Below are positions 46,402 to 63,213 of a stretch of DNA of 64,000 nt, piece by piece. The notes under the pieces were generated by a model. It saw only the letters and a list, made by a program, of their open reading frames with translations. It was not told the origin of the DNA and searched no databases. Each line of letters starts with the position of its first letter. Positions within the stretch are counted from its first letter, which is position 1. Made by a program: the position numbers and the translations under genes. Source of the stretch: Alteromonas australica (lineage in GTDB: Bacteria; Pseudomonadota; Gammaproteobacteria; Enterobacterales; Alteromonadaceae); the NCBI RefSeq assembly GCF_000730385.1, contig NZ_CP008849.1, positions 3,100,001-3,164,000 on the forward strand. Reading direction: 5' to 3'.

Positions 46402-46866
46402 AAGTTTTAAGTTATATTCCTATTTTAATTTCGAGCTATATCGCTAAAGCCTAAACATTAACGACAATGACGTTTCGATTGAGAGTTATTTACCCTTACG
46501 ATTAAACGAAAATGAAAGTACCGCTGATAAGCATTGTTACCTTACTTCAATTTTACACAAGGCTAAAGTGTGCACCTCGACTATATTTCATTGTCCCCTC
46601 ACGAAACACCGATGACCGTTTCACTTTACCCTTGCGCCAACCGTGTTTTACGTACCTATCTAACTGGCCACACCATATTGAATAACACAGCGTTTGTAAG
46701 ACGCAAAGCAGAACCTACTGGCACCGCTTTATTATTGCACTATATTTGACACCGGTGTCAAATATCTTTATAACACACACATATCGTTAAATTTACTGTT
46801 TACTGACTTTCCTACTTTTTCAAAGTGAAAGCCAATGAACCAATAAATAAAAGTTTTGGAGACTCT
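46402..46866. other. Long intergenic region between the LacI gene and uxaC
   Basis: 465 bp without a supported gene. The right part holds the uxaC operator and promoter (annotated separately). The remaining 300-odd bases next to the LacI start contain only short frames without ribosome-binding sites and no hairpin of note. Confidence 0.6.
46742..46774 (+). promoter_or_regulatory. LacI operator (24-bp perfect palindrome) with uxaC promoter
   Basis: 46742-46765 is a perfect 24-bp palindrome with the core TTTGACACCGGTGTCAAA. Its TTGACA (46746-46751) is a consensus -35, and after exactly 17 bp comes TATAAC (46769-46774), a good -10. Repressor bound here would block polymerase. Transcription should start near 46781, about 85 bases before uxaC. 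Confidence 0.88.
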
Positions 46867-48279
46867 ATGGCCAGCACGTTAACTATGCACCCTGACCGCC
46901 TCTTTTCATCGAATAAGATCGAGCGAGATATCGCAAGAAATCTATACCAACACGTTGAAAAATTGCCAATAGTTAGTCCTCATGGACACACTGATCCTGC
47001 TTGGTTTGCTGAGAACAAAAACTTTTCAAACCCTACAGAATTACTCATTCACCCCGACCATTATGTGTTTAGAATGCTGTATAGCCAGGGGGTTGATTTA
47101 GACCAATTGGGCATTCCTAGAAAAGATGGCAGCCATGCCAACGCCGACCCCGAAAAAGCTTGGCAAATTTTCGCCGATCACTATCACCTATTTCAAGGCA
47201 CGCCTTCACGGATATGGTTAGACTATGTATTTGTGAATACTTTCAATATTACCGAAAAACTAAACAGTAGCACAGCTTCGCACTACTATCAGGTCATTAA
47301 CGATGCCCTTCAAACAGAAGCTTTCAAACCAAGAAGCTTATTCGATCGTTATAATATTGAAGTCATTGCCACAACAGAATGTGCGACTGATAACCTTAAA
47401 CACCACCAGAAAATAAAAAACAGTGATTGGTCAGGCAAGGTTATTACCGCTTTTAGACCCGATGCAGTGGTAGATCCTGAGCATGAAAAATTCAATGCCA
47501 AATTAGTTCAACTCAGCGAATTAACTAATTTAGATTGTCAAGAGTATTCACAGTATTTGGATGCACTTCGCCAACGCCGTCTATTTTTCAAGGAGATGGG
47601 CGCTACATCAACGGATCATGGTCACCCAACTGCTGCAACAGCCAATCTAAGCGATGAACAAGCAAGCGTACTATTTCAAAAAGTACAAGACACCCCAACC
47701 GCTAGCGATGCCGAGCTTTTCCGCGCCCACATGTTAGTGAAAATGGCAGAGATGTCATTGGATGACGGACTCGTTATGCAGATACATCCTGGCTCTCATC
47801 GAAATCATAACCAGCAACTCTTTGCACACTATGGGAGAGATAAAGGGGCGGACATTCCAGCCAACACAGAGTATGTCAATGCGTTAAAACCACTTCTTAG
47901 CAAATTCGGTAACAACACTGATCTGAGTATCATTCTGTTTACTCTTGATGAAACAGTGTACAGCCGTGAGTTAGCACCATTAGCTGGCCACTACCCAAGT
48001 TTAAAGCTGGGCCCGGCATGGTGGTTCCATGATAGTCCAGAAGGTATGATGCGCTTTAGGCGCTCAGTAACCGAAACGGCGGGGTTTTATAACACGGTAG
48101 GCTTTAACGACGACACCCGTGCGTTTTTGTCTATTCCAGCAAGACATGATGTTGCGCGACGCATGGACTGCACCTATTTAGCTGAATTGGTTGCACGACA
48201 CATGTTAGATGAATCAGAAGCCGTGACATTGGCCAAAGATTTAGCCTACAACCTAGCGAAGGAAGCATACAAACTGTGA
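46867..48279 (+). CDS. uxaC: Glucuronate/uronate isomerase (UxaC)
   Basis: A 470-residue amidohydrolase-fold isomerase converting D-glucuronate to D-fructuronate (or galacturonate to tagaturonate). The N-terminal zinc-site motif is IVSPHGHTDPAWFAEN; later landmarks are VMQIHPGSHRNHNQQL and LGPAWWFHDSPEGMMRFR. The ATG at 46867, with TTTGGAGAC upstream, gives precisely the E. coli length; the GTG at 46825 would add 14 residues. First gene of uxaC-uxuB-thuA, driven by the LacI-operator promoter. Glucuronate rather than galacturonate is favoured by UxuB and ManD in the same window. Confidence 0.95.
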   Translation: MASTLTMHPDRLFSSNKIERDIARNLYQHVEKLPIVSPHGHTDPAWFAENKNFSNPTELLIHPDHYVFRMLYSQGVDLDQLGIPRKDGSHANADPEKAWQIFADHYHLFQGTPSRIWLDYVFVNTFNITEKLNSSTASHYYQVINDALQTEAFKPRSLFDRYNIEVIATTECATDNLKHHQKIKNSDWSGKVITAFRPDAVVDPEHEKFNAKLVQLSELTNLDCQEYSQYLDALRQRRLFFKEMGATSTDHGHPTAATANLSDEQASVLFQKVQDTPTASDAELFRAHMLVKMAEMSLDDGLVMQIHPGSHRNHNQQLFAHYGRDKGADIPANTEYVNALKPLLSKFGNNTDLSIILFTLDETVYSRELAPLAGHYPSLKLGPAWWFHDSPEGMMRFRRSVTETAGFYNTVGFNDDTRAFLSIPARHDVARRMDCTYLAELVARHMLDESEAVTLAKDLAYNLAKEAYKL

Positions 48280-48287
48280 GGGAAACA

Positions 48288-49799
48288 ATGGCTACGAACA
48301 GACTTAACGACGCACTACTCACCACGCTAGATATAGCTAACTATCGTAGTAAAAATGCCCCGATTAGTATTGTGCATTTAGGTATTGGTGCCTTCCATCG
48401 CGCACACCAAGCCTGGTATACCGACAATGTAAACCTAACGAGCAAGAGCGCTCCATGGTATATCGCGGGGGTATCTTTGCGTAGCGCCAGTGTCCGCGAA
48501 CAACTTGCCCCACAAGATGGGCTTTATCACGTTATTGAGTCGGACAAAAACGGAAAATCTGCAACGCTTATACAAGCAGTAAAGCAACTACTTGTCGCCC
48601 CAGAAAACCCTGAAGCTGTACTTACTTTAATGACGAAGCCTGACACTAAAATTGTCTCGTTAACCGTAACAGAGAAAGGATATTGCCACGACCCCGCGAC
48701 CAATAAACTAGACTTCAGCAATCCAAGTATTGTGCATGATTTAGAAAACCTAGATAAGCCTAAATCGGCAATAGGCTTTATTGCATCAAGCTTGCAGAAA
48801 AGATTCACTTCTCATGGACAAGGGCTCACAGTGTTGTGCTGCGATAACTTACCGCAAAATGGGACAACGTTAAAAGGTTTGATTTGCGAATTTGCTGAAC
48901 AACTGAATCCCAATTTAGTAGCATGGATAAAGCTTCATGTTTCGTTTCCAAATAGCATGGTAGATAGAATTGTACCTGCTACTACCCCCCAGGATATTGA
49001 AGACTTTCAGCAAGACGGTATCCAGGATTTGGGCCTAGTGAAATCAGAACGGTTTAGCCAATGGGTGATTGAAGATAACTTTGTGGCCGGTCGACCAGCG
49101 TGGGAAGACGTTGGTGTTACCCTTGTTGAAGATGTGGAACCTTTTGAAAACGCTAAGTTGAGATTACTTAACGGTGCTCATTCTGCTTTAGCATACATTG
49201 GCTTCCTTAGCGGCTATCAGTACGTGCATGAAGTCATGGCTGATGAGTATTTAACAAAGTACTTAAAGCATGTGATGCACAATGAGATCATGCCTACATT
49301 ATCCGCCCCACCCGGCTTAGATTTAACGCAGTACATCAATGATCTATTGGAAAGATTTCGCAACCCCGTGCTACATCACAGTACGTATCAAATCGCGATG
49401 GATGGCTCACAAAAACTGCCTCAACGCCTTCTTAATACCGTTATTGATAGGATTGCAAGCCAGGAGTCAATTGAAGGCTTGAGCTTTGCAATAGCAAGTT
49501 GGCTGCGCTATACCATGGCATTTGATCAAAAAGGCGACACCATTGAAGTACAAGATCCTTTAGCCGACACGCTGCTAATTATTCGCCAACAACATTGGGA
49601 TCATATTGATGAATTAATTCGCCAATATCTTGATGTCAGTAGCGTGTTCCCAGCAAGCCTATCGCAATCCGATATTTTCAGTCAGCGCGTCACGTATTGG
49701 TTAAGTTATATTTTGGCGAATGGCGTGCAAACCGCACTACAAAGCCTGCTACTGGAAGTACAAGATTACAGTATCAAACCGTTAGGAGCGCTATCATGA
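48288..49799 (+). CDS. uxuB: D-mannonate oxidoreductase / fructuronate reductase (UxuB)
   Basis: A 503-residue long-chain polyol dehydrogenase that reduces fructuronate to mannonate with NADH. Landmarks are IVHLGIGAFHRAHQAWYTDN, VSLTVTEKGYCHDP, KPKSAIGFI, SFPNSMVDRIVPATT and the catalytic KLRLLNGAHSALAYIGFL; these agree closely with E. coli UxuB, better than with mannitol dehydrogenase. The ATG at 48288 follows GAGGGAAACA; a GTG at 48276 overlapping the uxaC stop is less likely. It supplies mannonate to ManD. Tagaturonate reductase (UxaB) is the main alternative within the family. Confidence 0.9.
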   Translation: MATNRLNDALLTTLDIANYRSKNAPISIVHLGIGAFHRAHQAWYTDNVNLTSKSAPWYIAGVSLRSASVREQLAPQDGLYHVIESDKNGKSATLIQAVKQLLVAPENPEAVLTLMTKPDTKIVSLTVTEKGYCHDPATNKLDFSNPSIVHDLENLDKPKSAIGFIASSLQKRFTSHGQGLTVLCCDNLPQNGTTLKGLICEFAEQLNPNLVAWIKLHVSFPNSMVDRIVPATTPQDIEDFQQDGIQDLGLVKSERFSQWVIEDNFVAGRPAWEDVGVTLVEDVEPFENAKLRLLNGAHSALAYIGFLSGYQYVHEVMADEYLTKYLKHVMHNEIMPTLSAPPGLDLTQYINDLLERFRNPVLHHSTYQIAMDGSQKLPQRLLNTVIDRIASQESIEGLSFAIASWLRYTMAFDQKGDTIEVQDPLADTLLIIRQQHWDHIDELIRQYLDVSSVFPASLSQSDIFSQRVTYWLSYILANGVQTALQSLLLEVQDYSIKPLGALS

Positions 49800-50602
49800 T
49801 TAATGTTACCGTTTGGAACGAATGTCGGCATGAAAAAGAAGATGAAGACGTTCAAGAAGTATACCCAGAAACCATTGGTGGCTGTATCGTTGACGCGCTT
49901 AAACCCTTTGGTTTTAATTTAACGTTGTCCACGTTAGATGATCCTCATCAAGGTTGGCCTGATGAGCTGATCGAAAAAACTGACGTGGCCATTTGGTGGG
50001 GCCACCGGTATCACGATGAGCTCGATGACGCCATTATTGATAAACTACAAGCCCGTGTGCTCGCCGGAATGGGGTTAATTGTTTTGCACAGTGGTCACCA
50101 CAGCAAGATATTCAAACGCTTAATGGGAACAAGTTGTAACTTGAGTTGGCGAGAAGCCGATGGCGGAGAACGTGAACGGGTTTGGTGTTTGAAGCCCTCT
50201 CACCCAATCGCCTTTAATATTCCACCTCAAGTGGAGCTACCGCAATCGGAAATGTACGGTGAGCCTTTTGATATTCCTGAGCCCGATGAATTGGTTTTCA
50301 CCTCATGGTATCAAGGGGGTGAGATACTAAGAAGTGGCTGCACATTTCAACGTGGAAGAGGGCGTATATTCTTTTTCTCGCCAGGCCATGAAACGTTCCC
50401 CATTTACCGAAACCCAACCATTACTCAGATTTTAGCCAATGCGGTCGCTTGGGCACAGCAACCCCACGAAAGTGGCTGGACAATGCAAAATTGGGGGCGC
50501 CCAGTTCCGTTAGAAACAGGAGCCCCGAAGCAAACTTACTTCAAGAAGCCACGTAAATTAATGATTGCCGAAAAAACCGAAAAGAAAAATAGCCAGCGCT
50601 AA
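49796..50602 (+). CDS. ThuA-like (trehalose utilisation) domain protein
   Basis: A 268-residue cytoplasmic protein of the ThuA/glutamine-amidotransferase-like fold: VTVWNECRHEKEDEDVQEVY, DVAIWWGHRYHDELD, GLIVLHSGHHSKIF and RGRIFFFSPGHETFPIYRNP. The ATG at 49796 overlaps the uxuB stop (ATGA), with AGGAG seven bases upstream, so coupling is certain. ThuA of rhizobia acts in 3-keto-disaccharide metabolism together with a Gfo/Idh/MocA dehydrogenase (ThuB). Such a dehydrogenase gene ends 23 bp away on the other strand. A role in modifying an imported glycoside is therefore inferred. Confidence 0.85.
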   Translation: MINVTVWNECRHEKEDEDVQEVYPETIGGCIVDALKPFGFNLTLSTLDDPHQGWPDELIEKTDVAIWWGHRYHDELDDAIIDKLQARVLAGMGLIVLHSGHHSKIFKRLMGTSCNLSWREADGGERERVWCLKPSHPIAFNIPPQVELPQSEMYGEPFDIPEPDELVFTSWYQGGEILRSGCTFQRGRGRIFFFSPGHETFPIYRNPTITQILANAVAWAQQPHESGWTMQNWGRPVPLETGAPKQTYFKKPRKLMIAEKTEKKNSQR

Positions 50603-51742: not shown

Positions 51743-51771
51743 TTGACACCGGTGTCAATATTCGTGATATT
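51743..51771. promoter_or_regulatory. LacI operator between mocA-like gene and ABC operon
   Basis: TTGACACCGGTGTCAA at 51743-51758, a perfect 16-bp palindrome. For the plus strand TTGACA is followed after 17 bp by GATATT (51766-51771), a moderate -10, so the ABC operon promoter overlaps it. It is nearly equidistant (about 120 bp) from both divergent starts. Confidence 0.85.
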
Positions 51772-51876: not shown

Positions 51877-53214
51877 ATGAAAGGTAGTTTTGCACATCGT
51901 GTCGCTATTATTGTTTTTAGTTGTTTTATGTGCGATTGCGCAATGGTTCAAGCTTCACAAAAAAGTCATCCCACCAAACCAACTCTCGTAATTGCCGAAC
52001 ATAGATCAGCCAGGCTAAACGCGCTCTATCAGTTAAAAGAGGGACTTGAAGCGCGCCTAGAAATCAACTTGAAAATTGTAGAATATCCAGCTCCAGCACA
52101 AGATTATTTCACCAAACTCGTTACTGAGCTACGAGCAGGAAACGCCCCAGACATTTTTTCTATCCCCCGCGATGTGCAACTAGACGATTTAGCCGCAGCT
52201 GGGTATTTAGCCGATTTAACGACGGCGATGCACAACTGGGATGGCTATTCACAATTACCCAAGCTGGTCAGTTCGCTGGCAAAAGGGAGTTTCGACAATC
52301 GCACCTATGCCGTGCCTTCCATTGTAGCGATTGAACAACTTTATTATCGTCATGATTTACTTGAGGCTGCCGGTATAGACACTACCCAACCGAAAAGCTG
52401 GCAAGAATTACTTCACCGCGCGCGTACGATTAAACAGGTAACCGGTCAATTCCCTCTATTGTTTCCAGCAGGTTTAACGTGGGGAATGGGTTCCTATACC
52501 GAAGGGCTACGCTACCTGTTGGCTGGCTTTTCAGATTACCGCTTGATAAACCAACAGGGGCAATACCAACTTAACGACAGCGCTGTCCTTGAGGCCTTTA
52601 GTTTCTATCAAACGCTGGTACAAGAAGAACTGCTTCCCGTGACTCCGCTGCTCAACCCAGAACCTTGGGTTATTCCCAAGTACGAAATGTTTCCCAAAGG
52701 GGAGCTTATGATCACAACCTGTGGTACTTGGTGCCGGGTTTTCGATTGGGGAGCCAGTAGTCGTAATCCTATTAAGAACGTGGAACAGGCAGTAGGCAAT
52801 TGGAAAATACCCACAGCCGATGGCTCGCCACCTTTCGTGCTGGCATCTATGGTTTATGCTTGGGCCGTTAATGCAAAAAGCCGCCAGCTCGACATGGCAA
52901 CAGAGCTAGCACTTGCGCTAGGGTCGGTTGATGTAGCGCTCACCTACGCGAGAAACTTAGGTAATGTTCCCGCCCGCATGGATGCACGAGAGCACGCAGA
53001 TTTTCATCAGCTAGGTGCTTTAATGGAAGCACATGCTCAACTACCAGAGGCCCGCGCTTTGCGCTCCACCGTAGGAGCGAATGCAGTAATGGCTGGGGTA
53101 GCAAGGTCAACAGAAGCAGTTTTAATTGGTCGAGAAGATGCAAAAGGAGCGCAACAATTATTGAAAGCGTACGTGGCAAGTGTGTTGGGTGACAACGCGG
53201 TAAGTGAGGATTAG
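51877..53214 (+). CDS. ABC transporter sugar-binding protein (CUT1 family)
   Basis: A 445-residue exported solute-binding protein of the family-1 (MalE/UgpB-like) type. The signal peptide ends around MVQAS (residue 27). The body has AEHRSARLNALYQLKEGLEA, LVTELRAGNAPDIFSIPRDV, YAVPSIVAIEQLYYRHDLLE and PKSWQELLHRARTIKQ, all usual in this family. It delivers an oligosaccharide or glycoside in the periplasm to the two permeases downstream. The LacI operator upstream and the TonB receptor behind the operon suggest a disaccharide or small oligosaccharide containing uronate or mannose; ligand not determinable from sequence. Confidence 0.88.
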   Translation: MKGSFAHRVAIIVFSCFMCDCAMVQASQKSHPTKPTLVIAEHRSARLNALYQLKEGLEARLEINLKIVEYPAPAQDYFTKLVTELRAGNAPDIFSIPRDVQLDDLAAAGYLADLTTAMHNWDGYSQLPKLVSSLAKGSFDNRTYAVPSIVAIEQLYYRHDLLEAAGIDTTQPKSWQELLHRARTIKQVTGQFPLLFPAGLTWGMGSYTEGLRYLLAGFSDYRLINQQGQYQLNDSAVLEAFSFYQTLVQEELLPVTPLLNPEPWVIPKYEMFPKGELMITTCGTWCRVFDWGASSRNPIKNVEQAVGNWKIPTADGSPPFVLASMVYAWAVNAKSRQLDMATELALALGSVDVALTYARNLGNVPARMDAREHADFHQLGALMEAHAQLPEARALRSTVGANAVMAGVARSTEAVLIGREDAKGAQQLLKAYVASVLGDNAVSED

Positions 53215-53216
53215 GT

Positions 53217-54101
53217 ATGGCAATGAGTTTCGAATCAAAAAGGCAATTGGGCTATCGCATTATGATGGCTCCCGCGCTACTCCTAATGGGTGCATTTATT
53301 GTTTTTCCTGCTTTTTACGCGTTTTCGTTAAGCTTAACCAATGATGCACTTCTTGGCTTTGCAGCAAAAGAGTCATCGTTTGTGGGGCTTCGAAATTTCA
53401 GCCGCTTATTTAGCGACCCACTATTTTGGAACTCGCTCAAAGTTACACTTATCTTTGTAATAGGTTCTGCGGTTATTGGGCAATTTGTATTGGGCTTTGC
53501 GTCGGCCATCTGTCTTCAGCGCCCTGTAAAATACAAATCTATTTTTAATGCCATCATATGCCTACCTAATGCGGTGCCAGAAATGGTCGTAGGCTTTTTA
53601 TGGATATCTATGTTTGCCAGTGGTGAATATGGCACGTTAAACCGTATCGTAACTTCTTTTGGCATTGAGCCGCAGCAGTGGCTTTATAGCTTTCCTTTGT
53701 TTTCAATTATTATCGTGAACACATGGCGAGGTATAGCCTTTTCGATGATCTTGTTAACCTCAGGTTTGGCATCTATTCCTAAAGATATTTACGAAGCGGC
53801 CAAAGTGGATGGCGCCTCAGACAGACAAATTTTCACCCGTATTACGTTACCGCTTATGATGCCGACCATATTTCTCTACATGTTTATCTCTACGGTAACC
53901 ACTTTTGCAATATTCGGGCTTGTCTACACCCTCAGCCGAGGGGGACCTGCAAATAGCACCGAAATATTGGGTATCTATATTTACAATCAGTCATTCACTT
54001 CTTTTCAACTAGGCTATGGCGCAGCGGTAGCCGTGGTGAGTTTGGTGGTATCTATGATTCTAGGTGCAGTCTACGTGCGCGCATTGAAGGTAGAAGTATA
54101 G
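53217..54101 (+). CDS. ABC sugar transporter permease, MalF-like
   Basis: A 294-residue inner-membrane subunit with six helices. The start is typical (YRIMMAPALLLMGAFIVFPA), and the EAA loop that contacts the ATPase is IYEAAKVDGASDRQIFTRIT around residue 188-207. Starts two bases after the binding-protein stop. Forms the channel with the next gene product. Confidence 0.92.
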   Translation: MAMSFESKRQLGYRIMMAPALLLMGAFIVFPAFYAFSLSLTNDALLGFAAKESSFVGLRNFSRLFSDPLFWNSLKVTLIFVIGSAVIGQFVLGFASAICLQRPVKYKSIFNAIICLPNAVPEMVVGFLWISMFASGEYGTLNRIVTSFGIEPQQWLYSFPLFSIIIVNTWRGIAFSMILLTSGLASIPKDIYEAAKVDGASDRQIFTRITLPLMMPTIFLYMFISTVTTFAIFGLVYTLSRGGPANSTEILGIYIYNQSFTSFQLGYGAAVAVVSLVVSMILGAVYVRALKVEV

Positions 54102-54102
54102 T

Positions 54103-55032: not shown

Positions 55033-55045
55033 AAAGGTTACCAAC

Positions 55046-56134
55046 ATGTCACAAATTGAATTGATCAATATAAAAAAGCAATTTGAAAATACTGAAATTG
55101 TAAAAGGTGTGGATATTCACATTGAGAAAGGTGAATTCGCGGTCATTGTAGGCCCCAGCGGGTGTGGCAAGTCTACCCTACTGCGGATGATTGCTGGCCT
55201 TGAAGATATCTCTAGCGGAGAATTAAAAATTGGGGGACAGGTTGTTAACCATGTATCACCTGATAAACGCGGTATCGCCATGGTATTTCAATCTTATGCC
55301 CTATACCCACACATGACGGTAGCAGAAAATATTGGGTTTGCCCTTAGTCTTCAAAAAGTGGACAAGCAGGAAATTAAACAACGCGTGAAAGAAGCGGCAG
55401 AAATGCTAGAACTTACTGCGCTACTTAAACGCAAACCGGCTGAACTCTCTGGTGGTCAACGACAAAGGGTTGCCATCGGCCGTGCAATTGTAAAACGCCC
55501 GCAACTCATATTGTTTGATGAACCGTTATCTAACCTAGATGCCAAGCTTAGAGTTCAAATGCGCGCTGAACTTATGCGATTACATAGGGAATTCGGATCA
55601 ACGGTGATTTACGTTACACATGACCAAGTAGAAGCCATGACTATGGCACAAAAAATCATTGTGTTGAATCAAGGAAAAGTAGCACAAGTCGGCAAACCTA
55701 TGGCTCTGTACAAGCAGCCTGACAATCAATTTGTGGCACAATTTATCGGCATTCCTAAGATGAACTTGCTACCGGGGGCAATAAAAGATAATCGCTTCTT
55801 GGGAGAGTGTAATCAAGATGTCTCCTTAACCCAAACTTATCACAATGCCACTCTGGTGAATTTAGGTATTCGACCAGAGCATGTCAATATTGATCATCAG
55901 GGTAACGAATGGAACGTTATTCTAGTGGAACGTTTAGGCGTAGAAACATTCATCCATGTTAAAGCAAATAACGCGCAACAAGTGGTTGTGAGGCTAGAAG
56001 GAAATACCGACGTTGCAGAAGGTCAAAGGGTTGGATTGATAATAAATCCCGAAGTATGCTTTTTGTTTGACGAGAACGGCGAACGAATACACCCCAAGCT
56101 AGACGTTTTAAATGTTGTACAAAACTCAGCGTAA
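55046..56134 (+). CDS. ABC sugar transporter ATP-binding protein (MalK/UgpC type)
   Basis: A 362-residue ATPase energising the CUT1 importer. Walker A is VGPSGCGKSTLLRM (about residue 36-49), the Q-loop MVFQSYALYPHM, the signature LSGGQRQRVAIGRA, Walker B LILFDEPLSNLD and the switch His in YVTHDQVEAMTM. A C-terminal regulatory OB domain (about 240-360, LGIRPEHVNI) is of MalK type. Preceded by AGAAAGGTT. Completing the importer inside the locus shows that sugars are taken up unphosphorylated. Confidence 0.95.
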   Translation: MSQIELINIKKQFENTEIVKGVDIHIEKGEFAVIVGPSGCGKSTLLRMIAGLEDISSGELKIGGQVVNHVSPDKRGIAMVFQSYALYPHMTVAENIGFALSLQKVDKQEIKQRVKEAAEMLELTALLKRKPAELSGGQRQRVAIGRAIVKRPQLILFDEPLSNLDAKLRVQMRAELMRLHREFGSTVIYVTHDQVEAMTMAQKIIVLNQGKVAQVGKPMALYKQPDNQFVAQFIGIPKMNLLPGAIKDNRFLGECNQDVSLTQTYHNATLVNLGIRPEHVNIDHQGNEWNVILVERLGVETFIHVKANNAQQVVVRLEGNTDVAEGQRVGLIINPEVCFLFDENGERIHPKLDVLNVVQNSA

Positions 56135-56501
56135 ATGGTTCTACCTAGTAACACAATATCAGGCCTTAGTGCGACGCTAAGGCCACTTCATGTGAAGAGT
56201 TAACATAACGTTCAATTACCCAGACTTTTCAAACCGCCCCCTACTTTTAATGGCTTGCCCCCGGTATCATTAACCTTCAAAAAGTCGCCTCCCCGTACAA
56301 AAAATTAACAAAAAACAAGCCAAACAGGCGAATAAACACACACAAAAAGCCGAAATTTCAGACAAAAAAGAAAAAGCGGATTAAAAAACACACAAAAGTT
56401 AACAATGGAATAAAAAATAGTAAAAATTTTGATTACTTGTTGACACCGGTGTCATTGATCCTATAAATTCATGTTAGTTAATTGTTAATCAGGGGACGAC
56501 C
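56135..56501. other. Intergenic region upstream of the second TonB receptor
   Basis: 367 bp. A 10-bp hairpin (GGCCTTAG at 56162-56169 with CTAAGGCC at 56177-56184) without a T tract may mark the end of the ABC transcript. From 56290 to 56430 the plus strand is extremely A-rich and T-poor, with repeated A5-A6 runs and CACACA pieces. The LacI operator and promoter at the right end are listed separately. Confidence 0.6.
56440..56467 (+). promoter_or_regulatory. LacI operator with TonB-receptor promoter
   Basis: TTGACACCGGTGTCAT (14-bp perfect core 56441-56454). TTGACA (56440-56445), a 16-bp spacer and TATAAA (56462-56467) form a strong sigma70 promoter within the operator, about 35 bp before the receptor gene start. 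Confidence 0.86.
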
Positions 56502-59207
56502 ATGAATAAAAAAGTAAAAACCGCAATAGCTTTGGGTGTAATTACTGCCCTATCTACAACATATGCTATACCTGTCATCGCCCAAGAATCGGCTGATGAC
56601 ACGCTAGAAATAATTGAAGTAAAAGGATTTCGTGGCGCAGTAATAAAAGCCAAGGACTTAAAACGCGAATCATTAGTTGCACAAGATTCAATTGTTGCAG
56701 AAGACATCGCTGATTTTCCCGACTTAAACCTAGCTGATTCATTACAGCGTGTTCCCGGGATAGCAATTACCCGTGAAGGTGGAGAAGGACGACAAATATC
56801 ACTTCGCGGAATGGGCCCTCAATTCACGCGGGTTGAAGTTAACGGTATGGAAGCCTTAGGTTCGTCTTCATCTCCTATGGACAGCCGGGGCGCAGTTACC
56901 CGCTCAAGGGCTTTTGACTTTAACATTTTCGCATCTGAATTATTTAACCAAATTGATGTTAAGAAATCGTATTCTGCCGAAATCGAAGAAGGCGGTATCG
57001 GTGGTACTGTTAATTTGAAAACGGCCAAGCCTTTTGATTTCAGCGGCCCTAAAGGGGTGGTTGGTGTACAAGGTGGCACAAATACTAATACTGACAATTT
57101 TGACAATCGCTTTGTAGGCATGGTGTCTAATACGTGGGATAAGTTTGGCGCTCTGGCCTCTATTGCTTATAGTACAAGGAAGTCTAGCGAGCACGGCTAC
57201 AACACTTATAGATGGCGTAAAAAAAGCACTTCAGACTATAGTGATAGCATCGACTCAGGCACTGCTGCATTGCTTGAAAGCGGCGATTTATGGTTTTCTA
57301 GAGGTAACCGCTACTCTGTCTGGAATAACGAACAAGAACGCTTAGGTATTACTGCCTCTTTGCAGTACCGTCCATCAGATGACGTAGACTTAAGCCTAGA
57401 CTTCATGCGAGGCGAACTGAACAATACCTTAGATGAGCACCATATATCTACTGGCGGCTCAAGTAGTACCGCATTAGGTCGCGTGGAAGAGCTTGAATAT
57501 ATTGATAATAACGGTGATAAAGAAGTGGTATTCGCCCGTTATTCTGATACCACTGTACGAACAGAGTCGCGTGAAGATTATAATGAGTCAATCTTTACTC
57601 AGGTTACGTTCAATGCAGATTGGGTCATTTCAGATGCATTATCGGTAGAAGCACAAATAGGCACAAGTTCCTCTGAATACAATCAACCTAAGGTTAATAA
57701 AGCTAACCTTATGCGCGAAGGAAGCGGCATCACCACAGATTTCACCCAAGACCGTTTTTATGGCGTAAATACCTATGATTTCGATCCTACATCGACTGAC
57801 GGTTGGTTAGTTAAAGACTTGTACTTCCAAGAAGACTACATGAATACCGACTACGATAATGCCAAAGTTGATTTTAGGTACTTAGTTGGTGATTCTGGCA
57901 CAATCAGTTTTGGCGCAAACTATAAAAAATTCACTAACTCCGGTGAACGCAGACGTGATTCAGGCTATGTGCAAAGCAAAGATACTCCACTTAATACTGG
58001 CGTAAATACTATTTCTTCTGATATCACTGAAGTCTATTCTGATCACCCAGATCAAAGTTGGTTACAACTAGACATGGATGCAGTTAAAGCGTTTTACGGC
58101 TTATCTGATCTCTCGTTAGGAGACGATACTGTTGTAGAGACCTATGCCTTCGAAGTGCAAGAAGAAACCCAAGCACTTTACGGCTTATATAGCTGGGATA
58201 GCATACTGGGTGATTCGACCTTTAGAGGAAGTATAGGCTTGCGCTACTACAACACAGAACTGACTTCTAGCGGTGTTTCTAATGGTGAAGACATTACCAT
58301 GGTTCGCGACTACTCAGGCGTACTGCCTACCCTGAATGTGGTGTATGAGGTAAGCGAAGATGTACTGCTGCGCTTTAGTGCAAGTAAAAATCTAACTCGT
58401 CCCTCTTTAGGCGCGCTTTCGGTCTCAGCGAGTGTATCGCAAGCTACCTTGGCAGAAGGTGACATTGGTTCAGTATCAATAGGTAACCCTGATTTAGAAC
58501 CGTATTCATCAGTCAACATTGATACCTCTATTGAATCTTATTTTGAAGGCGTTGGTTACCTTTCTGCTGCGGTATTCTTCAAAGATATTGAAGATTTTAT
58601 AGTCACGGAAACAGCAGCTGAAACCAAAACCCTTGCAGAATTGTCGTTGCCTGAATCTTTGTTGCCAAACGGAGGCACTTCGGACACTCAATTTAATGTA
58701 ACCACACCGCAGAATGCCGACGCATCCACTATTAAAGGTTTTGAGTTATCTTTCCAACGTGATTTCGATTTCTTGCCCGAACCTTTCCACAATATGGGGA
58801 TGATTGCTAACTACACTTGGGCAGATGGCACAAGTAAGTACCGCAATGTACAAGGTAGCGGGGAAGATCAAGTTAAGGCATTCCAAGGGCTATCAAAAAG
58901 TAGCTACAACCTAACTGTCTATTATGAAACAGATACATGGGGCGCTCGCATTGCTGCAGCCTACCGTGACCGTTACATTAGTCGCGTTGAGTCTGGCCTT
59001 GGCGACGAAGACGAACGTGGATTCCATGAAACCACTTATGTCGATTTCTCGGCTTTCTATCAGCTCAGTGAAGCACTTAAGCTGAACATTGAAGGTATTA
59101 ACTTAACCAATCAACAAGAAGTTCAGTATAGTGACTCCAGTGATCGTCAATACAACACCACGACGAGCGGAAGAACCTATATGGCAGGTGTAACTTATAA
59201 GTTTTAA
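56502..59207 (+). CDS. TonB-dependent outer-membrane receptor (uronate/mannoside locus)
   Basis: A 901-residue TonB-dependent receptor. The signal peptide ends near VIAQ (residue 27), followed by a TonB-box-like LEIIEVKGF. The plug domain covers about residues 60-180 (NLADSLQRVPGIAITREGGE, ISLRGMGPQFTRVEVNGMEA, GGIGGTVNLKTAKPFDFSG), and the barrel ends in MAGVTYKF. It belongs to the long marine type found with carbohydrate loci. Preceded by GGGGACGACC and by the LacI operator promoter. It is followed by its own terminator, with the PHP lipoprotein gene 107 bp downstream. Substrate inferred as the same saccharide handled by GH92 and the ABC importer. Confidence 0.92.
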   Translation: MNKKVKTAIALGVITALSTTYAIPVIAQESADDTLEIIEVKGFRGAVIKAKDLKRESLVAQDSIVAEDIADFPDLNLADSLQRVPGIAITREGGEGRQISLRGMGPQFTRVEVNGMEALGSSSSPMDSRGAVTRSRAFDFNIFASELFNQIDVKKSYSAEIEEGGIGGTVNLKTAKPFDFSGPKGVVGVQGGTNTNTDNFDNRFVGMVSNTWDKFGALASIAYSTRKSSEHGYNTYRWRKKSTSDYSDSIDSGTAALLESGDLWFSRGNRYSVWNNEQERLGITASLQYRPSDDVDLSLDFMRGELNNTLDEHHISTGGSSSTALGRVEELEYIDNNGDKEVVFARYSDTTVRTESREDYNESIFTQVTFNADWVISDALSVEAQIGTSSSEYNQPKVNKANLMREGSGITTDFTQDRFYGVNTYDFDPTSTDGWLVKDLYFQEDYMNTDYDNAKVDFRYLVGDSGTISFGANYKKFTNSGERRRDSGYVQSKDTPLNTGVNTISSDITEVYSDHPDQSWLQLDMDAVKAFYGLSDLSLGDDTVVETYAFEVQEETQALYGLYSWDSILGDSTFRGSIGLRYYNTELTSSGVSNGEDITMVRDYSGVLPTLNVVYEVSEDVLLRFSASKNLTRPSLGALSVSASVSQATLAEGDIGSVSIGNPDLEPYSSVNIDTSIESYFEGVGYLSAAVFFKDIEDFIVTETAAETKTLAELSLPESLLPNGGTSDTQFNVTTPQNADASTIKGFELSFQRDFDFLPEPFHNMGMIANYTWADGTSKYRNVQGSGEDQVKAFQGLSKSSYNLTVYYETDTWGARIAAAYRDRYISRVESGLGDEDERGFHETTYVDFSAFYQLSEALKLNIEGINLTNQQEVQYSDSSDRQYNTTTSGRTYMAGVTYKF

Positions 59208-59223
59208 TCTGTTACTTATTGTC

Positions 59224-59314: not shown

Positions 59315-60766
59315 ATGCGCTACCCAGCATTGTACTCAGTGATTTTATCTTTCCCGCTTTTAGCGTCATGCAAAAGTACTGTTGACCAGCCCCAAAGTAA
59401 TATCCCGCCGAGCTCCACTCAGCAGGCAACAACACCAGAGTGGCTAGCAGGTGATCACCATATCCATGGTAAATATAGTGCTAGATGGGATTGGAGTACC
59501 ACCCCACCTACGCCTATTTTACGAGGAGATGCACAGTACGCCACCGCCATTTACGCGCAAATGGCAAAACATCACAATCTTAGTTGGATGGTTACCACAG
59601 ATCATGGTGGCCCTGCTCATAGTAAGGTAAATTTACATCAAGCCTATCCAGAGCTTGTTGCATCGCGCGAGGCCACACCTGAAGTATTGCAGTTTTACGG
59701 AATGGAATTTGACACACCAGGAGCACGCCACTGTAGTTTAATCATTCCACATACTGCGAATGAAGCTGAACAACTTTTTCGTATAGAAAAAAACTTTAAT
59801 CGACGTGAGGTTGAACCCAATTCCGTCCCCAGAGACACCAATGCCTTTATGTTAAAAGCGCTAAAGTCCATGCAAGCCGAGAAAGATAAACCGCTTTTAA
59901 TTGTAAACCACCCTGCTCGTTTAGCAGACAAGCTCGCTAGCTTCAAAAAGGTCACCCCCGAGAAACTAAAAGGTTGGCAAGATGCCGCACCTGATGTAGT
60001 GATAGGGATGGAGGGTGCGCCAGGACACCAGGCCAACGCGCTGAACCCTAATGGCTCAATAAAGAAATCTGGAAAGCGTGGCGGCTACGATCATTTCCCT
60101 ACTATGGGTGGCTTCGATCAGATGACCGCTATTGTAGGTGGTGTATGGGATCGTATGCTCAGTGAAGGTAGGCATTGGTGGATAACCGCAGCATCCGATA
60201 GCCATATGCATTACACAGAAGGGCGAACAGACTTTTGGCCGGGTGAATATTCAAAAACCTATGTTTTTGCTAACAAACAATACGCCGATATTATGCAAGC
60301 AATGCGCGACGGAAAAATATTTGTTACCACTGGCGATCTAATAGATTCATTGTCAGTTGAAGTGAAAAGTAACGCCAATCTGACTGCCAATATAGGAGAG
60401 ACAATCGCCATTACGTCGGGTGGCGATGCCACAGTAAGAATACGATTTCATGACCCTGACAATCACAATTTTGGCCGTCAGAACCCAAAGGTCGAACGTG
60501 TGGATGTGATTATTGGAAACGTAACGAGTGGCGATGAACCTGATGTAGCGCCGGTGGTTCATCGTTTTACACCCGATAAGTGGAGGGTAGATGGACAATA
60601 TGGGGTTATCGAAATATCACTTAACGATATTCAACAAGGGCATTACATTCGTGTTAGAGGCACCAACAATGCAGATGAACTTGAACCTGAAATAGACCCG
60701 CCAGGTGAAGATCCTTGGTCTGACTTATGGTTTTACAGTAACCCTGTATTTATTATTTTAAATTAG
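59315..60766 (+). CDS. Exported PHP-domain metal-dependent hydrolase, lipoprotein
   Basis: A 483-residue protein with a lipoprotein signal (lipobox LLASC, Cys19) and a PHP-type metal-dependent phosphoesterase domain (about 42-330). Metal-ligand motifs are GDHHIHGKYS (His-x-His), MVTTDHGGP (Asp96-His97), GMEFD (Glu), VNHPARLA and TAASDSHMHY. The last 150 residues (TANIGETIAITSGGDATVRI onward) look like a beta-sandwich. PHP enzymes mostly hydrolyse phosphoesters, and CehA/McbA relatives other ester bonds. The ATG at 59315 follows AGGAGCC. Location between a sugar receptor and GH92 suggests removal of a phosphate or phosphodiester substituent from the substrate. Substrate unknown. Confidence 0.83.
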   Translation: MRYPALYSVILSFPLLASCKSTVDQPQSNIPPSSTQQATTPEWLAGDHHIHGKYSARWDWSTTPPTPILRGDAQYATAIYAQMAKHHNLSWMVTTDHGGPAHSKVNLHQAYPELVASREATPEVLQFYGMEFDTPGARHCSLIIPHTANEAEQLFRIEKNFNRREVEPNSVPRDTNAFMLKALKSMQAEKDKPLLIVNHPARLADKLASFKKVTPEKLKGWQDAAPDVVIGMEGAPGHQANALNPNGSIKKSGKRGGYDHFPTMGGFDQMTAIVGGVWDRMLSEGRHWWITAASDSHMHYTEGRTDFWPGEYSKTYVFANKQYADIMQAMRDGKIFVTTGDLIDSLSVEVKSNANLTANIGETIAITSGGDATVRIRFHDPDNHNFGRQNPKVERVDVIIGNVTSGDEPDVAPVVHRFTPDKWRVDGQYGVIEISLNDIQQGHYIRVRGTNNADELEPEIDPPGEDPWSDLWFYSNPVFIILN

Positions 60767-60776
60767 CCCTATCGGC

Positions 60777-60808: not shown

Positions 60809-60817
60809 AGCCACTTA

Positions 60818-63103
60818 TTATTTTTGCATGGTCGACAACGAAGGGGGGAACTTACCCTTTCCCCAGTCAGATGGCTTAGATGCCATTTTTAATTTCAGCT
60901 CTCCTCCTTTTATTACATCTTCATGCGCTATCCAAGTGTTATTAAATGGCTTGCCGTTCAAGCTGGCAGAAACAATGTACCGATTCTTTTTACTAAGCTT
61001 ATCGGCGACCACTTTAAAGGTGTTCCCCCCTTCAAGATGCAAGGTAGCCGACTTCACTTGTGGCGTGTTAATTAAATAATATGGCTGTCCCGCATTGGGA
61101 AATAGGCCAATCATGTGAAAGGCCAGCCAAGATGACATGGCGCCCGAGTCGTCGTTACCCGGCAAACCGTCTCGCGCGCTGGTGTAATGTTCTTGGATGA
61201 TTTTATTAATTCTGTCAGAGCTTAAATGTGGCTTCCCTAACCAATGATAAAGCGTTGGTGTTAAAAACGAAGGTTCATTGGCTACATTGTAATAGTTGTG
61301 TTCAAAGAATGTGTTTAAGCGAGCTTCAAATGCACCGCTACCGCCACTCTTCTCTATCACTTGTGCAATATCATGAGGTACATAGAATGAGTATTCCCAT
61401 GAACTAGCTTCGTAGAAAAAACCACACCACCAGCACACACAATTTGGCCAGTCTTGCGCAAGCGGCGTGTACTCAATGTTCTGCGCTATACCATCTTTGA
61501 TAGTACAAGGAACTTCATCTACCCACTTTCCATCAGCATCTTTAGGCATAATGAAACCACGAGCGCCGTCGTGCTCGGTATCACGCCATAAGTTTTGCCA
61601 ATTATTTGATTGATCAATAAACCGGTAATATTCCCCCATGCGATGCAAACCTTTTGCAACGGTGGCTAACGCAAAGTCGTTGTATGCGTATTCTAGGGTG
61701 CGATTTCCCGCGCGCACGTAATCGGTAGATACATAACCTAAATGGTTGTAATCCTCTAAGCCCCCTCGCCCTTCTTTCTCGCTATTTCCACCAGGAGAAA
61801 CTGTGGCATTTTTTATCATCGCTTTAAGGGCTTGGTGGTAATTAACGCCGCTTAAATTTTTAGCGTAAGCATCTGCAATGACCACATCAGCGTTTGAACC
61901 GCCTTGAGTGCGACCATTTGTATTACCGCTGCGCCCTTCAGGTAAATAACCATCGTAGCGATAGATATTTAACATGCCATTGATAATATCAGCTTGGCGC
62001 TCTGGAGCAATTAAGGTGATGAGAGGTGAAGATGTACGAAAGGTATCCCAAATGGCGTAGAAGTCGTCATAGTAAGGTGTTGCCGTCCAAAGCGGGTTTT
62101 CACCGGAACGATCTACCGGCATCAACATCGTATGATATAACCCTGTATAGAACATGACGCGCTGTTCTCGGCTTGCTGATTTATCTAATTCGATTTGCGC
62201 AATTAACCGTTCCCACTTTTGTTCACTTTGCTCTCGTACCAGATTAAAGTTCCAATGCGGTATTTGACCTCGAAGATTCTCAGCTGCCTTGGCTTCGCTA
62301 ATAAATGAAATGCCTATTTTCAGCTTAACTGTTTTACTTTTATGGTCGCTAAACCGGCAAACTACGCCCGTTTTATCACCCGAGTCATATTGACTCTTTA
62401 TAGACGGATAAAGGGTGTCACCCTTGAACGTGCTAAAACTATCACAGGGTTGATTAACCTGGGCATGATAATACACCGTGTATGCATTACCATTATTCCA
62501 ACCGCCGCGAATTCGACTATAGCCTCGAATTTCAGTTGGCGAAATGACTTCTACCTGAGAACCAACAAATTGCTGTGCTTCCCTTGCATCAGGAACGGCT
62601 TTTTCACCTAGAAAAAATCCACCGTCTATTTTAATCGCATTGTTGCGATTATCACGAAACGTGTATTGATGAAATGCGGCTCTATCGGCGGTGGCTAGCT
62701 CTGCTTTTATTCCCCACTTAACCAAATCAGTCGCATAGTAACCTACGCTGGTATGCTCATTGGCACGTAAACTCGTTTGCGCAACCGACTCGAAATCTCC
62801 TGAATACGGCATAATAGAAATATTACCGTACTTAGGTCCGCCACCTGTACCGCTGACGTGTATTTGACTAAAGCCAACGAGGGGTTTGGTTAAATCTGGG
62901 TCGTAACCACTATTACTGTGAGTGCCAATATCTGGCCCTGGCTTCACCATGCCAAATGGGTTACTGGGGCCAACGAACACGTTCCCCAAACCTTCTGAAC
63001 CAATGAAGGGGTCGATATATTCATGGTAGTTGTCCTTAGCGAAACTCATCGAACAACAAAGCAATATTGAAAGAAATAAAGTAGATTTCAGCAAATTGAG
63101 CAT
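60818..63103 (-). CDS. GH92 alpha-mannosidase, exported
   Basis: A 761-residue secreted GH92 enzyme that should remove terminal alpha-mannose with calcium. The ATG at 63103 is preferred: AAAGG lies eight bases upstream and a signal peptide (to about SMSFA) follows; a TTG at 63124 would only add seven residues. N-terminal domain: YIDPFIGSEGLGNVFVGPSN, FGMVKPGPDIGTHSNSGYD, VGFSQIHVSGTGGGPKYG. Catalytic (alpha/alpha)6 domain: FYAIWDTFRTSSPLITLI, LPEGRSGNTNGRTQGGSNAD, and the catalytic-base motif PGNDDSGAMSSWLAFHMIGL near residue 648. This is a canonical family member, unlike the other GH92 of the window. The LacI operator lies 80 bp upstream. Confidence 0.93.
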   Translation of the reverse strand: MLNLLKSTLFLSILLCCSMSFAKDNYHEYIDPFIGSEGLGNVFVGPSNPFGMVKPGPDIGTHSNSGYDPDLTKPLVGFSQIHVSGTGGGPKYGNISIMPYSGDFESVAQTSLRANEHTSVGYYATDLVKWGIKAELATADRAAFHQYTFRDNRNNAIKIDGGFFLGEKAVPDAREAQQFVGSQVEVISPTEIRGYSRIRGGWNNGNAYTVYYHAQVNQPCDSFSTFKGDTLYPSIKSQYDSGDKTGVVCRFSDHKSKTVKLKIGISFISEAKAAENLRGQIPHWNFNLVREQSEQKWERLIAQIELDKSASREQRVMFYTGLYHTMLMPVDRSGENPLWTATPYYDDFYAIWDTFRTSSPLITLIAPERQADIINGMLNIYRYDGYLPEGRSGNTNGRTQGGSNADVVIADAYAKNLSGVNYHQALKAMIKNATVSPGGNSEKEGRGGLEDYNHLGYVSTDYVRAGNRTLEYAYNDFALATVAKGLHRMGEYYRFIDQSNNWQNLWRDTEHDGARGFIMPKDADGKWVDEVPCTIKDGIAQNIEYTPLAQDWPNCVCWWCGFFYEASSWEYSFYVPHDIAQVIEKSGGSGAFEARLNTFFEHNYYNVANEPSFLTPTLYHWLGKPHLSSDRINKIIQEHYTSARDGLPGNDDSGAMSSWLAFHMIGLFPNAGQPYYLINTPQVKSATLHLEGGNTFKVVADKLSKKNRYIVSASLNGKPFNNTWIAHEDVIKGGELKLKMASKPSDWGKGKFPPSLSTMQK

Positions 63104-63182
63104 TAATGTGACCTTTAAGCGCAAACTAATTGTGGAACTAGCCGCTATTAACGAAATTTTAACGAGTATTTTTTACCACGTC

Positions 63183-63213
63183 TTTGACACCGGTGTCAAA
63201 CCTAGCATATAGT
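63183..63213. promoter_or_regulatory. LacI operator between GH92 and the AGE-family gene
   Basis: TTTGACACCGGTGTCAAA at 63183-63200, a perfect 18-bp palindrome. On the plus strand TTGACA is followed after 18 bp by TATAGT (63208-63213); on the minus strand TTGACA is followed after 17-18 bp by a weaker TAAAAA. One operator can thus control both divergent genes. Confidence 0.85.

Follow-up and report, generated by a model that had tools for sequence, protein, structure and literature searches.

The LacI-family protein encoded at positions 45364 to 46401 of the window (the whole stretch of 64,000 nucleotides that was analyzed) is very probably a local, self-linked repressor of a regulon with four operators, each of which overlaps a promoter −35 element. 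On the evidence of sequence, we assign a probability of about 0.88 to this reading, a value that covers the regulon and its mechanism and not the substrate. Its predicted target is the palindrome TTGACACCGGTGTCAA, present at four operators that would each hold the −35 element of the controlled promoter, and bound repressor would directly block RNA polymerase until effector binding releases it. The effector may be a glucuronate- or inositol-containing breakdown product. The controlled genes would be uxaC-uxuB-thuA, mocA, those of an ABC importer, a TonB receptor together with a CehA-like hydrolase, and GH92, perhaps joined by an AGE-MFS-GH28 run, and the regulon would serve uptake and breakdown of a molecule that contains glucuronate and mannose. 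In regulatory terms, it is a local LacI regulon of the ordinary kind, and what is new lies in the pathway.

45364–46401, minus strand: lacI, LacI-family regulator and proposed repressor, with recognition helix VSKKTVSRVIN
46742–46765: operator 1, 24-bp perfect palindrome between lacI and uxaC
46746–46751 and 46769–46774, plus strand: predicted operator 1 promoter, −35 TTGACA and −10 TATAAC
51743–51758: operator 2, 16-bp perfect palindrome between mocA and the ABC operon
51766–51771, plus strand, and 51735–51730, minus strand: predicted operator 2 −10 elements GATATT and TTTAAT, each at 17 bp
56441–56454: operator 3, 14-bp perfect palindrome ahead of the TonB receptor gene
56440–56445 and 56462–56467, plus strand: predicted operator 3 promoter, TTGACA and TATAAA
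63183–63200: operator 4, 18-bp perfect palindrome between GH92 and AGE
63184–63189 and 63208–63213, plus strand: predicted operator 4 promoter, TTGACA and TATAGT
56256–56269: TGCCCCCGGTATCA, degenerate possible auxiliary operator with three mismatches, 185 bp upstream of operator 3

LacI-family operators are palindromes with a central CG. The motif TGACACCGGTGTCA has this form, and its four copies lie in perfect palindromes of 14–24 bp. A preliminary description of the region had listed four palindromes, all of which are present at the places given, and its 24-bp perfect palindrome at operator 1 is borne out by measurement. At 56440–56455, the inner 14 bp are palindromic, but the outer pair is T/T, so the full 16 bp are not. 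That description had also put lacI at the edge of the gene set. Instead, lacI starts (46401) on the side of uxaC, with operator 1 in the gap that separates the two genes.

The genome-wide motif scan that had been proposed was carried out with a consensus, not a matrix. Four exact copies of TGACACCGGTGTCA were found in the genome of 4,308,833 bp, all of them within the cluster, whereas 0.012 copies are expected from the base composition of the window. With up to three mismatches allowed, the window holds 10 matches, compared to 1.68 on average over 100 shuffles. A single one-mismatch copy, at 1451832, falls within an open reading frame of 1034 amino acids (RND pump-like by eye) and was for that reason not accepted as a fifth operator. 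Chance occurrence and a repeated element were likewise rejected as origins of the palindromes: The genome has no other exact copies, and the four sites have different flanks, so they are not a copied element. As an auxiliary operator, the site at 56256 is only a weak candidate, and with three mismatches it is not significant alone. In several relatives, two sites are found 66–249 bp apart at the receptor gene; the helical phasing of these paired operators (6.3 to 23.7 turns) follows no consistent pattern.

The preliminary description also held that the TTGACA of each palindrome is followed after 16–18 bp by a −10-like hexamer, and this is correct on the plus strand at all four sites (TTGACA-17-TATAAC, TTGACA-17-GATATT with a 4/6 match, TTGACA-16-TATAAA, and TTGACA-18-TATAGT). 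Comparison across relatives supports the placement of the −35 element within the predicted operators. At one-sided sites, which have a gene on a single side, a −10 element at 16–18 bp is present on 15 of 21 gene-facing strands versus 2 of 21 opposite strands. A spacing of exactly 17 bp is seen on 40 of 83 facing versus 0 of 21 opposite strands, a difference that comes mostly from two-sided sites; for one-sided sites alone the values are 3/21 and 0/21. The sites counted were those of the survey of ortholog genomes described below, minus the GH115 sites of genome G144 and sites without a recognized gene.

The 45364–46401 protein has an N-terminal helix–turn–helix (HTH; PF00356, 66.8 bits, cut-off 27) and a C-terminal effector domain resembling periplasmic binding proteins (PF13377, 108.5 bits, cut-off 26.5). 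Its NCBIfam equivalog matches all fall far below their cut-offs, the best being RbsR at 171 versus 382 bits. Among the 14 LacI HTHs of the genome that exceed the cut-off, it is the only one with a Lys-Lys recognition helix. A Lys-Arg LacI paralog is adjoined by TGCCACCGGTGGCA instead of TGACACCGGTGTCA. The two-mismatch matches of the TGCCACCGGTGGCA form were set apart from the regulon's own sites because the Lys-Arg LacI lies between two of the four.

A survey of LacI loci indicates that the Lys-Lys helix goes with the operator. Exact sites lie within 1.5 kb of 27 of 50 distinct Lys-Lys LacI proteins, compared to 1 of 52 LacIs with other helices (IK 37, VK 6, FK 5, MK 4; three proteins with other residue pairs were left out), in a sample (loci L018–L206) that is biased, having been gathered partly by LacI similarity and partly by motif. 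Of the 23 Lys-Lys proteins without an exact site, one (G186) has a one-mismatch site; the other 22 came from a related-locus similarity search and belong mostly to sphingomonads and their relatives, in which the helix continues differently. The HTHs were found by a regular expression, and the 5 of 15 in this genome that it missed were read by eye. In genome G164, one exact site lies outside the LacI locus and adjoins a NagR-like LacI (L204) whose recognition helix is Ile-Lys.

The co-conservation check that had been suggested was performed on 295 Alteromonadaceae genomes, in which the motif scan and the LacI search covered the same genomes and thus constitute an unbiased test of co-occurrence. 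An ortholog of the LacI protein (62% identity or more) is encoded in 16 genomes spread over five genera. Three to seven exact sites are present in 15 of these; in the remaining one there are two sites with one mismatch each. At least three exact sites occur in only 17 of the 279 genomes without an ortholog (Fisher p = 1.4e-15), although these counts and the p value ignore kinship among related genomes that are not independent. A site with no or one mismatch lies just upstream of lacI in 16/16 ortholog genomes.

If the palindromes belonged to another regulator or to a repeated element, then the neighboring LacI gene would be coincidental. Different Lys-Lys LacIs, with about 35–42% identity, accompany the same motif in other genomes, and therefore the motif alone does not identify the 45364 protein as its regulator. 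However, this genome has the single Lys-Lys LacI noted above, the four flanks rule against a copied element, and the co-occurrence of the motif with the 45364 LacI is near complete. A coincidental neighbor is hardly credible on these grounds.

The genes proposed to belong to the regulon are listed below, with the profiles or solved relatives that identify them.

46867–48279, plus strand: UxaC glucuronate isomerase (NF002794 equivalog, 580.6 bits, cut-off 387); the ATG start after GGAG was picked by eye, the listed open reading frame beginning with GTG at 46825
48276–49799, plus strand: UxuB-type fructuronate-reductase-like dehydrogenase (PF08125 and PF01232); best NCBIfam fructuronate reductase score 406 bits, under the cut-off of 603
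49796–50602, plus strand: ThuA-domain protein (PF06283, 4.3e-28), start computed from a frame of 268 amino acids
50625–51617, minus strand: Gfo/Idh/MocA oxidoreductase (PF01408, 8.3e-23)
51877–56134, plus strand: ABC sugar importer, with solute-binding protein at 51877–53214 (SBP_bac_8, 5.5e-21), permeases at 53217–54101 and 54103–55032, and ATPase at 55046–56134 (permeases and ATPase named by eye)
56502–59207, plus strand: TonB-dependent receptor of the TonB-Xanth-Caul type (TIGR01782, 631.7 bits)
59315–60766, plus strand: CehA/McbA-like metallohydrolase (NF038032, 61.7 bits, under the cut-off of 80)
60818–63124, minus strand: GH92 alpha-mannosidase-type glycosidase (PF07971, 473 bits; solved GH92 alpha-mannosidases)
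63547–63999 and past the window end, plus strand: AGE-family sugar isomerase (solved relatives 3gt5 and 5x32, E below 1e-126)
L016:4683–5984 and 6047–7711, after AGE: MFS transporter (by eye) and GH28 gene (PF00295)

Profiles and solved relatives agree with the identities given earlier for UxaC, the UxuB-type dehydrogenase, ThuA, MocA, the solute-binding protein, the TonB receptor, GH92 and AGE. The CehA-like protein has no Pfam match, and its best solved match (E 0.0076) is uninformative. By eye, the N terminus of this protein is lipoprotein-like.

Similar genes stand behind sites in relatives. Among the 16 ortholog genomes, the genes behind a site include the TonB receptor (14), mocA (12), thuA (11), an importer (12, of which 10 are ABC and two GPH-type MFS) and UxaC and/or UxuB, whole or as a fragment (12). 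In several genera, sites front lacI/uxaC-uxuB-thuA, mocA/importer, TonB receptor, GH92, CehA-like and GH28 genes. Genome G186 is an exception, with no reference gene except lacI behind its two sites. Five exact sites have no recognized gene (L189:10403, L191:7275, L190:7391, L022:15985 and L196:19761); the first, in G051, is inside a receptor open reading frame. The survey covers genes similar to the reference set within fetched stretches, minus three exact sites, one each in G164 (C106 = L204), G144 (C30 = L192) and G117 (C53).

Together, the unique sites, the co-occurrence and the similar genes fronted in several genera support the reading of one LacI regulon. The earlier proposal that these genes form a single pathway is probably right for the set. 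AGE is its weakest member: Its start lies some 350 bp away from operator 4, and the corresponding site of two other Alteromonas genomes has GH92 and GH28 behind it, with AGE elsewhere. Membership of AGE and the MFS gene is uncertain.

Three further features of the window bear on the substrate.

38305–45374: myo-inositol catabolism cluster, with IolA, IolD and IolC on the minus strand (Aldedh, TPP enzyme, PfkB+DUF2090), and an RpiR-type regulator (by eye) and IolB (44601–45362, PF04962) on the plus strand
33109–34335, minus strand: ManD D-mannonate dehydratase, the step after UxuB (NF043051 equivalog, 742 bits, cut-off 550)
2–1372, minus strand, off the window edge: GH89 alpha-N-acetylglucosaminidase in a NagR-type cluster (PF05089, 403.8 bits)

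None of the three has a LacI site in the window, and we do not claim direct regulation of the inositol cluster; in relatives, GH89 sits downstream of an operator. Operators in the 16 relatives front genes for GH28 (6), GH92 (5, one of which, in G119, is counted at 26% identity), GH115 (5), GH89 (4, three of them after an intervening nagR) and PI-PLC-C1 proteins (4; PF16670). IolB adjoins lacI in 9/16 ortholog genomes, and a match at E 1e-100 or better is present in 11/16 versus 5/279 others. GH89, IolB and PI-PLC are all enriched in ortholog-bearing genomes. With UxaC/UxuB in 12/16 genomes and IolB in 9/16, both glucuronate and inositol catabolism are linked to the locus, by linkage only.

GH28, GH92, GH115, GH89, PI-PLC and IolB together resemble tools for the head group of GIPC (alpha-Man/GlcNAc-GlcA-inositol-P-ceramide). 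We therefore tentatively suggest, at somewhat less than even odds, that a GIPC-type glucuronosyl-inositol head group is the substrate and that the pathway scavenges sugar-inositol heads of plant-type sphingolipids. Chemical synthesis of a Man-GlcA-inositol has been reported (PMC12498067). Under this scheme, a secreted PI-PLC or CehA-type phosphoesterases would cut the head from ceramide, and the TonB receptor and ABC importer would take in the Man- or GlcNAc-GlcA-inositol head. GH92 and GH89 would take off the outer alpha-sugar, and the alpha-GlcA-inositol bond would be split by GH115 or a repurposed GH28 (or by MocA/ThuA inside the cell). UxaC/UxuB/ManD and the Iol enzymes would burn the products, and the regulator would sense a glucuronosyl-inositol. 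Candidate families for these bonds are GH92 and GH28, both part of the window set, together with GH89, GH115 and PI-PLC, which some relatives have behind sites. Near the PI-PLC gene that this genome does have, no site with two or fewer mismatches is present. Our estimate was lowered slightly because the PI-PLC-C1 gene, present in ten ortholog genomes, is in five of them confined to places far from the LacI locus.

The same regulon could instead act on a polysaccharide containing glucuronate and mannose, of which diatom-type glucuronomannan is an example, with the inositol genes as mere neighbors. GH92, AGE, UxaC/UxuB and ManD suit mannose plus glucuronate, and GH43 and GH2 genes lie near sites in the g50 genomes. 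This alternative also fits the inositol genes without a LacI site, the distant PI-PLC genes just noted, and the lack of PI-PLC in the window set. Against it stand the IolB linkage and enrichment, and a glucuronomannan needs neither the PI-PLC nor the GH89 found behind sites. Furthermore, no lyase or endomannanase family was found among the Pfam-scanned products, which are a part of all products, although GH28 includes endo-acting members. We consider a polysaccharide substrate rather unlikely.

Another possibility is a regulon for free glucuronate or galacturonate (pectin), paralogous to the usual UxuR/KdgR-type systems, in which GH28 would be a polygalacturonase. Hexuronates are usually handled by UxaC and UxuB, polygalacturonases are among the solved relatives of GH28, and the Lys-Arg LacI (G000:C1:2554321) is accompanied by a second uxaC in a hexuronate-type cluster. 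That cluster resembles the window locus in combining a LacI, UxaC and a mannitol-dehydrogenase-family reductase, and its operator (TGCCACCGGTGGCA) differs by one base per half-site. It differs in its free-hexuronate-type genes, already having uxaC/uxaB-like, altronate-dehydratase-, KduI/KduD- and TRAP-like genes (by eye); the two LacIs are 36% and the two UxaCs 61% identical. Since this second cluster exists, the window uxaC copy looks specialized. Moreover, UxaC is missing behind the operators of G279 and of the five genomes in which UxuB is reduced to a C-terminal fragment, yet the remaining genes of the set are retained. A free-hexuronate regulon would also leave the GH92 and inositol linkage unexplained, and we judge it improbable.

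LacI regulators of inositol (IolR), glucuronate/galacturonate (ExuR, KdgR, UxaR, UxuR) and mannose (ManR) utilization are grouped in Table 1 of Ravcheev et al. (2014; PMC4052901). Like the regulons presented there, the one proposed here pairs an HTH with a periplasmic-binding-protein-like sensor and a palindromic operator for local control of uptake and catabolism. Unlike them, as summarized in that source, a single regulator here would span glucuronate enzymes, GH92, and the phospholipase and alpha-glucuronidase-type genes of relatives. A word-start search of the main text of that paper gave no matches to 'Alteromonadales' or 'CCGG'. The UxuR2 locus of Algoriphagus marincola HL-49 (PMC5507952) likewise has predicted LacI control of glucuronate/galacturonate genes and a glycosyl hydrolase; the account of that locus names a TRAP transporter and GH109, and no inositol, PI-PLC or GH92 link. 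Within the window, a NagR-type LacI (4283–5428) lies beside similarly built sites, TGTCAACGTTGTCA (4199) and TGACAACGTTGACA (5449), and a TonB receptor-like gene, but its helix is Phe-Lys and its operator center is AACGTT rather than ACCGGT. The NagR name and the GlcNAc-like neighboring genes were assigned by eye.

According to the text available for PMC11496612, a GIPC phospholipase C of Botrytis cinerea attacks plant GIPC and frees the inositol-phosphate glycan head. That case concerns a putative sphingomyelinase-type enzyme of a fungus and no bacterial uptake regulon, and the PI-PLC-C1 proteins that relatives have behind operators belong to PF16670. No bacterial GIPC catabolic locus appeared in titles or abstract starts among the open-license matches listed. 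The 14-mer motif was in no open-license paper text searched, its inner 12-mer being in one unrelated paper, and a literature search for an Alteromonas glucuronate/inositol LacI regulon led to general papers on regulons, to PMC5507952 and to a paper on a Cronobacter genome.

On the regulatory side, two LacIs in one genome provide an operator contrast of one base (TGACACC versus TGCCACC) that tracks the Lys-Lys/Lys-Arg difference between their helices. The metabolic side points to a specific, testable substrate. If the GIPC reading is true, it predicts roles for the GH28, CehA-like, ThuA and MocA proteins.

Four near-identical palindromes were proposed in the preliminary description to be operators of one regulon, each embedding a -35 element that is followed by a -10-like hexamer. 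All four carry the 14-mer TGACACCGGTGTCA with 0 mismatches and supply TTGACA, and -10-like hexamers (4 of 6 matches or better) follow on the plus strand as claimed. The features are as follows, each operator being placed by the first base of its 14-mer.

45364-46401, minus strand: lacI, the proposed repressor gene
46747: operator 1, between lacI and uxaC; perfect palindrome of 24 bp, spacer of 17 bp
51744: operator; perfect palindrome of 16 bp, spacer of 17 bp
56441: operator, TonB receptor gene; perfect palindrome of 14 bp, spacer of 16 bp
63185: operator; perfect palindrome of 18 bp, spacer of 18 bp

The genome scan suggested as a check (one contig of 4,308,833 bases; the window is C1:3100001-3164000) finds exact TGACACCGGTGTCA at these four places only. 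From the base composition of the window, 0.012 exact copies are expected per genome. The single one-mismatch copy, at 1451832, is within a 1034-aa ORF.

Across 60 distinct site contexts from relatives and the window, read on both strands, TTGACA itself is present in 98 of 120 strand readings. At spacer 17, 38% of these readings have a -10-like hexamer; every other spacer between 9 and 39 gives 2-20%. For the 52 distinct sites with a gene direction, a -10 at exactly 17 bp is found on 40/83 gene-facing and 0/21 opposite strands (background 9%), a contrast that depends on two-sided sites, since one-sided sites give 3/21 facing versus 0/21 opposite. When a -10 at 16-18 bp is counted, one-sided sites give 15/21 facing versus 2/21 opposite. 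An operator over the -35 box is compatible with simple repression through RNA polymerase blocking. The receptor gene of several relatives has two sites 66-249 bp apart; the window receptor gene has only a degenerate candidate for a second site (56256, 3 mismatches).

As a regulator, the LacI is of a well-known kind: its Pfam domains are the LacI helix-turn-helix and a sensor domain resembling periplasmic binding proteins. Its start points toward uxaC, and the protein is 99% identical to that of Alteromonas lipotrueae MD_652, the closest named genome found. None of the open-licence paper texts searched contains the 14-mer, and a single unrelated one contains the inner 12-mer; a RegPrecise entry for this LacI may already exist. 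The Pfam LacI model matches 15 places in the genome, 14 of them above cut-off, and among these 14 proteins the window LacI is the only one with Lys-Lys at the two variable recognition-helix positions. A Lys-Arg LacI (C1:2554321) has TGCCACCGGTGGCA adjoining and is accompanied by a second uxaC, 61% identical to that of the window. TGACACCGGTGTCA and TGCCACCGGTGGCA are a natural one-base operator contrast inside one genome. The Lys-Arg LacI and its sites lie in a hexuronate-type cluster (C1:2547000-2560000, locus L224) with kdu-, TRAP-, uxaA-, uxaC- and uxaB-like genes by eye, and further exact TGCCACCGGTGGCA sites are at C1:4097928 and C1:4100141. Separately, a NagR-type cluster at window 2-11065 holds a GH89 alpha-N-acetylglucosaminidase (PF05089) and, by eye, a TonB receptor-like gene and GlcNAc-type genes; its LacI-type sites are TGTCAACGTTGTCA (4199) and TGACAACGTTGACA (5449).

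Co-conservation of motif and LacI was examined in one set of 295 family genomes, own included, scanned for both; genera and kinship are assigned labels, and related genomes are not independent. The exact motif is present in 36 genomes, and a control with the reversed pattern matches in two. LacI matches at E 1e-60 or better occur in 159 genomes, and their identities fall into two separate groups, 62-100% in 16 genomes and 43% or less in the other matches listed. One of the 16, G279, is counted on a 171-residue stretch at 74% identity. The expected association is borne out, as 15 of these 16 orthologue genomes, five genera in all, carry 3-7 exact sites. The remaining one (G186) has none; its locus L193 has two one-mismatch sites, one adjoining lacI. 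Among the 279 other genomes, 21 have an exact site and 17 have at least three (Fisher p = 1.4e-15 for at least three, the genomes being related). Four genomes hold a single exact copy, where three or four are expected by chance at ~0.012 per genome.

The 17 comprise 15 genomes of genus g19, with four exact sites each, plus G175 and G218. Both g19 loci that were read completely, L198 and L199, encode a Lys-Lys LacI that is ~40% identical to the window's and shares the exact motif, adjoined by edd-, eda-, gap- and glucokinase-like genes (by eye). Eight of the 15 g19 genomes, as well as G175 and G218, have an exact site at most 1.5 kb from a Lys-Lys LacI. Therefore, the same motif goes with different regulators in other species.

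Genes similar to a reference set were counted behind sites of 0-1 mismatch in retrieved stretches of the 16 orthologue genomes; three exact sites fall outside this count, and behind five others none of the reference genes was recognised. A site precedes lacI in 16/16 genomes, the TonB receptor in 14, mocA in 12, thuA in 11 and the ABC importer in 10, with a GPH-type MFS transporter instead in two Alteromonas. Less frequent are CehA-like (7/16), GH28, UxaC and UxuB (6/16 each), GH92 (5/16, one at 26% identity), GH115 (5/16), GH89 and PI-PLC (4/16 each). Five other genomes retain only the C-terminal ~220-250 aa of uxuB at the lacI operator (L173:11663-12385, L175, L179, L187, L188), and uxaC is missing from their operons; the fragment scanned, that of L173, has PF08125 alone.

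In G266, one operator precedes a co-directional run of receptor, GH89, NagX-like gene, PI-PLC, GH28 and CehA-like. Because a separate nagR lies within the run behind the receptor in G069, G023, G223 and G051, the GH89 of these four may answer to NagR, not the LacI. In G164, one of the three exact sites outside the count (TGACACCGGTGTCA at L204:12844) precedes nagK/nagB/nagA-like genes (by eye) and adjoins a NagR-like LacI whose helix has Ile-Lys; either the Lys-Lys LacI also controls this site, or the helix rule has an exception here. Genus g50 (L190, L191, L021, and L022 from Catenovulum sp. 2E275) has the regulon in rewired form: the orthologous LacI precedes PI-PLC and a metallophosphoesterase, GH115-like genes lie behind further sites, and each genome has 4-7 exact sites; no iol cluster adjoining lacI was seen in these four loci. 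Under the same operator type, CehA-like is joined by GH115 in some genomes (L180:4850-8403, L183:5701-9254) and by GH28 in others (L176:3351-6564, L186:15322-18587), hinting that the paired GH28 may act as an alpha-glucuronidase.

UxaC and the UxuB-type reductase would turn glucuronate into mannonate; NCBIfam places UxaC above its cut-off and the reductase below its own. A mannonate dehydratase equivalog, ManD (33109-34335), has no site. Next to it, a second GH92-like gene (35190-37577) is flanked by genes for a GntR-type regulator and a HAD-type protein (these labels by eye), also with no LacI site. The regulon's GH92 product is related to solved alpha-mannosidases, and the product of the AGE gene, a possible regulon member, to solved AGE-family enzymes.

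Relatives add PI-PLC-C1, metallophosphoesterase, GH115 and GH89. GH89 is present in 12/16 orthologue-bearing versus 6/279 other genomes (Fisher p 4e-14), IolB (E 1e-100 or better) in 11/16 versus 5/279 (p 6e-13) and PI-PLC-C1 in 10/16 versus 15/279 (p 2e-8). IolB adjoins lacI in nine of the 16 orthologue genomes; three more have iol genes no farther than ~16 kb from lacI. Linkage to the LacI locus is looser for PI-PLC than for GH89. Of the 12 genomes with GH89, 11 have it on the contig of an exact operator and at most 50 kb away from it. PI-PLC is behind an operator in 4 of its 10 (G119, G144, G164, G266), ~16 kb from lacI in G051, and >100 kb off or on another contig in G000 (own genome), G295, G117, G214 and G254.

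The window's own regulon contains no PI-PLC. The genome's PI-PLC-C1 (PF16670; C1:3016368-3025176, L222:8369-17177) lies between a metallophosphoesterase-like gene, with 41% identity to its Catenovulum-type counterpart, and a pair of TonB receptors that share 47% and 33% identity with the window receptor; this cluster has no LacI site of two or fewer mismatches. Word searches of open-licence papers gave no bacterial locus for catabolism of glycosyl inositol phosphoceramide-type sphingolipids (GIPC) among the matches listed, and the consulted passages do not show GIPC in marine algae ('alga' occurs 0 times in PMC9113257). Judged from gene content, the relatives' pooled genes fit the structure of GIPC bond by bond, better than they fit glucuronomannan or pectin, and GIPC is by inference a candidate substrate.
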